From positions 1-49,013 of the forward strand of contig JACQLK010000026.1 in assembly GCA_016204145.1 (NCBI GenBank): 49,013 nucleotides of DNA, written 5' to 3'. This DNA is from Candidatus Pacearchaeota archaeon (GTDB lineage Archaea > Nanobdellota > Nanobdellia > Pacearchaeales > GW2011-AR1). Both the position numbers and the translations under genes were made by a program. A model generated the notes under the pieces. That model did no database searches. It had not been told where the DNA came from and was given only the letters and a program-made list of their open reading frames with translations. How positions within the stretch are numbered: the stretch's first letter is position 1; every line of letters starts with the position of its first letter. Positions 13,864 through 49,013 of the stretch are shown here, in pieces.

Positions 13864-13880
13864 AACTTCGCGGGAATTTT

Positions 13881-13967
13881 TTGGAAAATATTAATATAAA
13901 CCGCCGTCATAAATTTGATAGAGGTCGTTGTTGGTTAACCTTTCTTAGTGGCGGGCGGGTGGGAGCA
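13881..13967 (+). repeat. Intergenic repeat, copy 4 (good full-length example)
   Basis: AAAATATTAATATAAACC, then CATAAATTTGATAGAGG, then TCGTTGTTGGTTAACC, then TTAGTGGCGGGCGGGTGGGAG. Order and spacing match the copies at 26.2 and 33.2 kb almost base for base in the core. Confidence 0.75.
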
Positions 13968-21056: not shown

Positions 21057-21185
21057 GTGATAAAAATATCTTGCATATTATTTATTTTTCAATTTTGGGT
21101 TTCGCGGGGTGGGCGGAGAGCGATTTCGCGTGTAATCCATAAAAGCGAGGTCGCGAGTAGGGGGATTGGAGGTGGGACAAATAAA
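21057..21185 (+). repeat. Intergenic repeat, copy 5 (with hairpin)
   Basis: After GGGTTTCGCGGGGTGGGCGG comes the stem GCGATTTCGC (21120-21129), loop GTGTAATCCATAAAA and GCGAGGTCGC (21145-21154). All ten positions pair as RNA. The element then ends in GGAGGTGGGA. The loop is identical to copy 12 near 47.96 kb. Orientation +, against both flanking genes. Confidence 0.75.
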
Positions 21186-21591: not shown

Positions 21592-21600
21592 ATTTTTAAA

Positions 21601-21722
21601 CGAGCCCAGGAGGAATTGAACCTCCGCCTACAGGTTACTCCGAAGCCCGCTCGCGATAAATAAAATTGTCTCGCAAACTTCCTCGCCGAAGCCTGTCATT
21701 CTGTCCGTTAAACTATGGGCCC
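21601..21722 (-). tRNA. tRNA-Arg(UCG) with a 50-nt intron
   Basis: The cloverleaf is complete: acceptor GGGCCCA/TGGGCTC with discriminator G, D stem GTTT/GAAT with GG in the loop, anticodon stem ACAGG/CCTGT, variable loop AGGC, and T stem GGAGG/CCTCC with loop TTCAATT. The mature anticodon loop CTTCGGA gives anticodon UCG. The intron (21636-21685) interrupts position 37/38. CTTC pairs with GGAG as the 4-bp central helix, with 3-nt bulges GGC and TAA, a canonical archaeal bulge-helix-bulge. Exons are 21686-21722 and 21601-21635. No 3' CCA is encoded. A TATA-like box around 21742-21752 is about 25 nt upstream. Confidence 0.93.
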
Positions 21723-21772
21723 GAAATTTCAAAAGAAAAGAGGTTTTTAAACTATAAATTCTTATCTGATTG

Positions 21773-25548: not shown

Positions 25549-26223
25549 TATGAAAATTTCCTATTTTTATGCTGAAAAAGTATTTTACTTATTATTTCCT
25601 TTTTCATTATAAAAGTCAGAAATCTCGCGCCTGATTAAATTAGGGTTTAACCGTTCATTTATTCAGACAGGAAAAATCTGAACAAACTAACAGGGTTTAA
25701 TTTTGGCTGTAGCGAGGACTAAACTAAACGCCGAATTCTTCCACACGCAAGTCAGTCCTGTTTGCATAACCGAAAGAGATTATCTGCATTTATAAAATTT
25801 GCCATGGATTTTGTATCACTTTAAAATTATAGAAACAATTTATATACTTTTGATTCGCCAAAGATTTTAGCGCGAATTTTTTGTGAATTTTCAGCGCATA
25901 CTGCATATTGATTTGGATTAAATTGCAAAAATTTGTCTCGCTTCGCTCGCAATATCTTCCTACTTCAAATCCGCCCTCGACAGGATTTTCCGCCAAAAAA
26001 ATTTTAATTGTAAAAACGTCGCGATTAAATGGTTATTGCATTAGAATCTTCTTTAGAAAAAAAATTTGGCGGAGCCGAGCGTTTTGACTTTGACAAATTT
26101 TATTTTATCAATGGTGAAGTCAGGACGCGAGTTGGTTTTGAGCCGTCAATATCTAAACGAAGTGAAGCAAAATTTAGAGGGATATTTGTTTATCGGGCGG
26201 GCAAGCAGTTTTGCGAGAATCAT
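25549..26223. other. Gene-poor stretch
   Basis: No convincing gene. TATTTCCTTTTTCATTAT occurs twice, near 25538 and 25591. A tract TTTGTCTCGCTTCGCTCGCAA lies at about 25934, like those at 10.8 and 47.9 kb. GGGCGGGCAAGC with GTTTTGCGAG near 26196 looks like another decayed tail of the intergenic repeat. A 75-codon frame at 26029-26256 overlaps that repeat-like sequence and I do not count it as a gene. Confidence 0.5.
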
Positions 26224-26369
26224 TTGAAAGATATTAACATAAAACCTCAATCATAAATTTTAATGGAAGTCGTTGTTAGTTAACATTTTTAGGGGTGGGC
26301 GGTCGGAGGATTGGGGGGGAGTTAGTTTTCCATATTCACAACGAGAGGAGTTGTGAGTTGGCGGGATGA
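26224..26369 (+). repeat. Intergenic repeat, copy 6 (with hairpin)
   Basis: GAAAGATATTAACATAAAAC, CATAAATTTTAATGG, then GTCGTTGTTAGTTAAC and GGGGTGGGCGGTCGG. It then has a hairpin TCACAAC-GAGAGGA-GTTGTGA (26336-26356) and a closing GGCGGGATG. It lies in a convergent gap between proS and the ART-like gene. Confidence 0.75.
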
Positions 26370-33044: not shown

Positions 33045-33390
33045 ATTTTTAAAATATTTTTGTAGATAAGATTATAAAACTTTTTTAATGTAAAACTCCT
33101 TTTTGATTGATATGGGTGATTTTATGGGTTGGCGGTTTCTTGAAAATTTTTTGAGAAATATCAATGTAAACCTTCATCATAAATTTAATAGATGTTGTTG
33201 GTTAACCTTTATTTTTATGGGGTGGGCGAGCGTTTGCACGAGTCATATGTTTGTAATCCAAAACGAGTGCGGGCGTGAGCAGAGGCGGGGATAAATTTGA
33301 AGAATAAAAATTATCTTTTGTTTTCGTCAACCAATTTTCAACAAAACCCGCAACAACTAAATTTTTAAAACATCTTCCCTTTTTCTTTTA
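33045..33390. other. Gap before alaS with an intergenic repeat
   Basis: No gene seen. It holds repeat copy 8 and the alaS TATA-like box (TAAATTTTTAAAAC, centred about 25 nt before the ATG). A first TTATGGGTTGGCGG at 33122 may be the tail of another decayed copy. Confidence 0.6.
33151..33297 (+). repeat. Intergenic repeat, copy 8 (with hairpin)
   Basis: GAGAAATATCAATGTAAACC, CATAAATTTAATAGATG, TTGTTGGTTAACC and GGGGTGGGCG. Then comes the stem CGTTTGCAC (33231-33239) with GTGCGGGCG (33267-33275), nine pairs as RNA. The loop contains TTTGTAATCCAAAA. It closes with GAGGCGGGGA. The stem sequence differs from copies 5 and 12 yet still pairs, and TGTAATCCA is kept. Confidence 0.75.
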
Positions 33391-47851: not shown

Positions 47852-48016
47852 AACAAAAAAACTTGTCTCCTTCGCTCGCAAAAATAAAGAATGATAACTA
47901 TAAATCCGCGGTTTTATCATTAAAATTGTTCCTATGGGGCGGGTGGCGAGCGATTTTGCGTGTAATCCATAAAAGCGAAGTCGCGAGCATGGGATTTTGG
48001 AGGCGGGATGAAATTT
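47852..48016 (+). repeat. Intergenic repeat, copy 12 (with covarying hairpin)
   Basis: After ACTTGTCTCCTTCGCTCGCA and CCGCGGTTTTATCATTAAAA comes GGGGCGGGTGGC. Then the stem GCGATTTTGC (47950-47959), loop GTGTAATCCATAAAA and GCGAAGTCGC (47975-47984), with all ten positions paired. It ends GGAGGCGGGA. Compared with copy 5, one G-U pair becomes A-U and one C-G becomes U-G, keeping pairing. Confidence 0.75.
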
Positions 48017-48880: not shown

Positions 48881-48908
48881 TTTTGATTTCTAAATTTAAT
48901 TAGAATTA

Positions 48909-49013
48909 TTTGAAAAATGTTAATATAAAAGTAAATATGAATATTAATGGAAATTTATATCGTCGCGTCGGTTTTAGGATTAACATCTGTTCTCAAGGGC
49001 GGGTGGGCGGGGA
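48909..49013 (+). repeat. Intergenic repeat, copy 13 (reaches the window end)
   Basis: TTTGAAAAATGTTAATATAA, an insert, ATCGTCGCGTCGGTTTTAGG, ATTAACATCTGTTCTCAAGG, GCGGGTGGGCGGGGA. It may continue beyond the window. Confidence 0.7.

Follow-up and report, generated by a model that had tools for sequence, protein, structure and literature searches.

The Rickettsia palindromic elements (RPE; Ogata et al. 2000, 2002) are short stem-loop repeats of 105–146 bp that occur between genes, in frame within protein genes and within RNA genes (reviewed in PMC2229807 and PMC10969869). REPs tagged by GTAG or CGTC, described from bacterial phyla, are small multi-copy hairpins that carry a constant tetranucleotide, one-ended and unpaired, and are sometimes intragenic; those of the CGTC type have no dedicated transposase and include RPE-4 and RPE-6 (PMC3733652). 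Bacterial MITEs such as YPAL/RU-2 are associated with target duplications of variable size, ranging from 3 to 26 bp in YPAL (PMC2229807). For one archaeal tRNA, a mobile-element origin of the intron has been proposed, involving a recombinase-bearing plasmid-like element (PMC3293823).

Here we analyse a contig of 49,013 nucleotides from a Candidatus Pacearchaeota archaeon (hereafter the window), in which G-rich repeats enclose hairpins with variable but paired stems. With a probability of about 0.8, we read these hairpins as the core of a short (~60–70 nt), non-autonomous mobile palindromic element whose folded plus strand is needed for spread, so that the structure belongs to a dispersed mobile repeat lineage and not to a host RNA at fixed loci. 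No such elements were found described in archaea, including Pacearchaeota and other DPANN, in the open-licence papers searched. Likened by behaviour alone, with no membership or sequence relation claimed, the element appears to work most like RPE: it is a dispersed, multi-copy palindromic stem-loop with intergenic copies, and for neither is a mobilising enzyme known. It differs from RPE in its archaeal host, its length, four CGAG boxes, a U·G-rich stem and the use of copies as tRNA introns. As in the GTAG- and CGTC-tagged REPs, the hairpin is small, multi-copy, tagged and sometimes intragenic, but the box is CGAG, present four times and in G·A-pairable positions, instead of GTAG or CGTC at one end, and the loop spans ~15–35 nt. 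It shares with YPAL/RU-2 its non-autonomous nature, inverted repeats within the unit and fusions in frame with genes. Putative target duplications that vary in size, a further feature of YPAL/RU-2, occur here at a minority of copies only, and neither a related full-length insertion sequence nor terminal inverted repeats came to light at the copies inspected.

Three window copies (5, 8 and 12) share a 10-bp stem whose sequence varies while pairing is kept, located where a preliminary description, made from the sequence alone, had placed it (Table 1). The plus strand of each folds better than shuffled sequence; the minus strands of the copies at 33224 and 47944 fold no better than shuffles (z 0.2 and -0.4), and that of the copy at 21114 is weaker than its plus strand (-9.9 versus -15.7 kcal/mol). 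The same description had taken the loop TGTAATCCA to be fixed. Across the family the loop is variable and TGTAATCCA is present in only 4 of 95 copies, its occurrence in the window copies reflecting local ancestry. A further repeat, copy 6, had been described as bearing a different stem in the same place; its nhmmer match is limited to profile positions 35–61, and it is probably just the 3' half of the element, locally re-paired.

Table 1. Copies of the element and associated features in the window.
Feature	Position	Strand	Layout	Support
Element core, copy 5	21114–21162	+	Stem 21120–21129/21145–21154; loop 21130–21144; GCGAGTAG end	CM R1 56.4 bits, E 1e-12; fold z -2.79
Element core, copy 8	33224–33284	+	Stem 33230–33239/33267–33276; outer and inner CGAG-type boxes	CM R1 70.4 bits; fold z -2.06
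Element core, copy 12	47944–47992	+	Stem 47950–47959/47975–47984	CM R1 51.4 bits; fold z -2.81
Probable 3' half of element (copy 6)	26334–26360	+	Refolded as TCACAAC/GTTGTGA	nhmmer; fold z -3.71
Diverged element copy	26073–26135	+		CM R1 25.7 bits, E 5e-4
G-rich host repeat around copy 5	21106–21177	+	Core apparently nested inside (GGGGTGGGCGG ... GGGGGATTGGAGGTGGGA)	85% match to 47936–48008
G-rich host repeat around copy 12	47936–48008	+		
tRNA-Arg gene	21600–21723	-	Intron is an element copy	Rfam tRNA 51.3 bits; ARAGORN 50-nt intron
Element copy within tRNA-Arg intron	21635–21688	-		CM R1 29.8 bits, E 4e-5

The element is accompanied by other repeats. Core-less forms of the G-rich host repeat occur elsewhere in the window's genome. 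A second dispersed repeat (AAATATTAATATAAAACC...CATAAATTTAATAGA..GTTGTTGGTTAAC; window positions 13875–13930, 26215–26301, 33145–33200 and 48904–48959) is frequently stacked directly upstream of the G-rich repeat, and another inner hairpin module, TGACTTTAACTATTTTAAAATTATTAATAATAAAGTC, lies inside or beside the CGAG stem at L036 (3125–3188), L005 (8804–8867) and L184 (upstream of 12149). One subfamily (L228, L222 and L083) carries a 5' hairpin, GGATGAGAACC-NNN-GGTTCGACGAGC, similar to a tRNA T-arm, and two of its copies follow a duplicated tRNA 3' end.

Contigs totalling 755,945 bases, nearly the whole of the window's genome, were searched with a profile of the core and yielded ~21 full copies. 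In 21 own-genome copies, pairing holds in 96% of the 10-bp stem, with 27 double-sided changes, and the covariation score reaches 0.549, compared with 0.276 for shuffled sequences and no more than 0.13 when partners are slid. We then applied our own imitation of R-scape to 95 cores from many genomes, building a tree and simulating independent columns along it (60 simulations). In six stem pairs the covariation exceeds this tree-based null (E<0.02), while no pair outside the stem is significant or reaches E 0.05; the covariation noticed in the window thus holds in the larger alignment. Across the 95 copies, 911 of 948 stem cells are paired, 678 as Watson-Crick and 233 as G·U pairs, and just 11 are A·C, an imbalance that identifies the plus strand as the folding strand. 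The wobbles are strongly one-sided, with U in the 5' arm and G in the 3' arm in 216 of the 233, and one stem U is invariant (95/95). Two facing CGAG boxes flank the stem on each side, and the four G·A cells are conserved in 83–90 of the 95 copies; judged by sequence, a 5'-CGAG/5'-CGAG match would allow two G·A pairs enclosed by two standard ones. The mean fold z of the plus strand is -1.91 with RNA parameters and -0.62 with DNA parameters, a modelled difference that favours RNA without proving it.

A covariance model, R1, served as the search model for the element across genomes. In the window's own genome it matched 20 times at E<=1e-3, and it detected the element in 56 of 231 related genomes, all within one Pacearchaeota-like family, with a highest copy number of at least 22 per genome. 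In a phylum-wide sample, 21 of 371 genomes were positive, all in the same family, and a weak match was seen in one Pacearchaeota-named record. From this match and from the window's LeuRS, whose nearest records (67–70%) bear the names Nanoarchaeota and Pacearchaeota, the lineage was assigned by inference. An exact-pattern search of viral contigs gave no match, and a viral origin was rejected on that absence. Within the window, Rfam returned nothing above the gathering threshold except a tRNA, the best weak matches at copy 5 lying below threshold (E 0.99 and 3.7), and a known Rfam RNA family was accordingly rejected.

Copy positions are largely species-specific. Between the window's genome (G000) and a congener (G001; median ortholog identity 65%), copy-bearing intergenic intervals have one common copy (C19:5554 / G1C10:52149) among ~30 syntenic sites. 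The remaining comparable intervals carry the element in one species only, with filled and empty lengths of, for some, 377/21, 376/23 and 381/3 bp. Since these loci are not common to the two species, the compensatory changes do not stem from long selection at fixed loci but belong to a replicating lineage. In another genus (g17), neither of two sister species, G112 and G132, has the L225 insert of G017, which is flanked by a 57-bp perfect target duplication; other repeats are stacked at this site, and part of the duplication belongs to another dispersed repeat. An unrelated ~56-bp repeat (ACTCGACCACGCTTGGGCGAGTTTGTTGAAAAACTTCC...), present more than 20 times in g17, also lies at L225 (query 1060–1121; G017 and G112). 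A search for an empty site of L227 in G028 found no ortholog, and at single filled/empty sites loss instead of gain is possible. Taken as a family, the copies resemble MITEs: they are non-autonomous and mobile, and relatives have empty sites.

In 8 of 99 copies, against 0.15 expected, a direct repeat of 10 bp or more begins within 0–3 nt of the 3' end. The count includes an 11-bp repeat at a reverse-transcriptase insertion in G109, which by itself was discounted, since both of its copies look like native reverse-transcriptase sequence; most element copies show no clear target duplication. Five of the eight duplicate the 3' end of an adjacent tRNA gene. Targeting of tRNA genes was rejected on the intergenic baseline of two nearly whole genomes, with 6 copies near tRNA genes against 3.3 expected (P ~0.1). 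Copies are randomly oriented with respect to the genes beside them, 14 of the 41 intergenic ones being antisense to both neighbours, and this speaks against a cis RNA function. Integron attC sites were set aside on the lack of a cassette-like order, as seen in this random orientation.

As in RPE, copies are found in frame in conserved protein genes. In G112, an RsmB/F-type methyltransferase contains 21 extra in-frame residues encoded by the element, with near-identical flanks in G132, and the methionine aminopeptidase holds two tandem in-frame elements where that of G132 has none. Further in-frame copies lie in ArgRS of G132, in RsmB/F of G001 (the G000 ortholog is without a copy), in a DUF763 gene of G106 and, antisense, in a Dus gene of G093. 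Because these copies were found by seeking open frames, disruptive insertions are under-counted; one is the copy at L232 (1480–1546; G109), which breaks the reverse-transcriptase gene mentioned above. The broken gene resembles the reverse transcriptases of diversity-generating retroelements.

The parallel with RPE extends to RNA genes. The copy that forms the intron of the window's tRNA-Arg gene has an 8-bp direct repeat, GGCTTCGG, at both ends (21640–21647 and 21686–21693), and the syntenic tRNA-Arg(TCG) of G001 is intronless; a second tRNA-intron copy occurs in G084. The proposed mobile-element intron of PMC3293823 is similar in that the tRNA gene is interrupted in one lineage but whole in a related one, and in that direct repeats derived from the tRNA are present. 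Here, by contrast, a member of a multi-copy hairpin family forms the intron itself. Of the 34 tRNA genes in G000, about half are given an intron by ARAGORN, and most of these introns are something other than element copies.

An improbable alternative is that an IS200/IS605-like Y1 (RAYT) transposase moves the element as a REP-type hairpin of single-stranded DNA. Short palindromic repeats with constant tetranucleotides beside the stem would fit such a system, as would the presence of Y1 genes in 44 of 150 relatives, including two in the window's own genome; in G104, one copy and a Y1 gene lie ~130 bp apart. However, this is the only such neighbouring pair, and the other Y1 genes among the matches listed do not adjoin copies; the hairpin is far weaker under DNA than under RNA parameters, and direct repeats of 10–57 bp, seen at some copies, are unexpected for Y1 elements. 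Moreover, the copy-rich genomes G001, G014 and G017, all incomplete, have no Y1 match, on which grounds the Y1 transposase was rejected as mobiliser. Reverse transcriptase, with genes in 44 of 150 genomes, was likewise rejected as mobiliser, none having turned up in the same three incomplete genomes.

Still harder to sustain is a host regulatory or structural RNA, either a cis UTR element or a small RNA gene, that has multiplied in the genome. It would account for the strong covariation, the single functional strand and G·U pairs typical of functional RNA, and since no Rfam match exceeds threshold, the family could be an undescribed one. Against it, loci are almost never common to the two congeners, orientation is random, copies lie within coding and tRNA genes and the loop is not conserved. 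The proposal in the preliminary description of a functional RNA or a protein-recognised single-stranded DNA hairpin therefore survives in part. Selection on a single-stranded fold is supported by the covariation, the one-sided G·U pairs, the conserved G·A boxes and better folding as RNA than as DNA; protein recognition of a fixed loop is not. Nor is a host RNA at each locus, because sites are rarely common to species, orientation is random and copies lie inside protein and tRNA genes.

It is very unlikely that the palindrome arises by mutation or replication template switching, its pairing being kept by correction at the DNA level and not by selection on the fold: the layered repeats and duplications that surround copies and an inverted T-arm-like sequence at L086 would suit such a process, but correction would give perfect palindromes, yet U·G pairs stand at set positions, one with its U in every copy, and strand-symmetric mutation predicts equal T·G and C·A where A·C is nearly absent, a one-sided wobble pattern that speaks against at least the simple form.

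In the mobile palindromic element that we favour, the plus strand folds into a stem of ~10 bp that is rich in U·G pairs at its centre, with facing CGAG boxes on either side that are predicted to form tandem G·A pairs. The element would spread in single-stranded, structured form, most likely as RNA, and this folded form would be recognised by a putative trans-acting enzyme. Copies insert in either orientation, into intergenic DNA, into tRNA genes, where a copy can serve as an intron, and in frame into protein genes. Compensatory changes would then accumulate in the replicating lineage because folding would be required for spread and not for a function at each locus. More tentatively, and with low probability, the element may be a short retroelement of archaea: a structured RNA, framed by tandem G·A motifs, that is copied into DNA again, its 3' end fixed and its target duplications varying in length.

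Gene-invading in-frame palindromes are best known from Rickettsia and Wolbachia, and nearly the same behaviour is seen here in another lineage that has reduced genomes and is probably symbiotic, and whose sister species differ in filled and empty alleles. The family also illustrates that covariation can mark the spreading form of a mobile element instead of a host RNA. The element offers a testable source for archaeal tRNA introns, whose origin is debated, and a testable route for in-frame protein inserts in small genomes, which are also debated. If the retroelement reading were true, invasion of tRNA and protein genes would yield new tRNA introns and in-frame protein segments in DPANN archaea.
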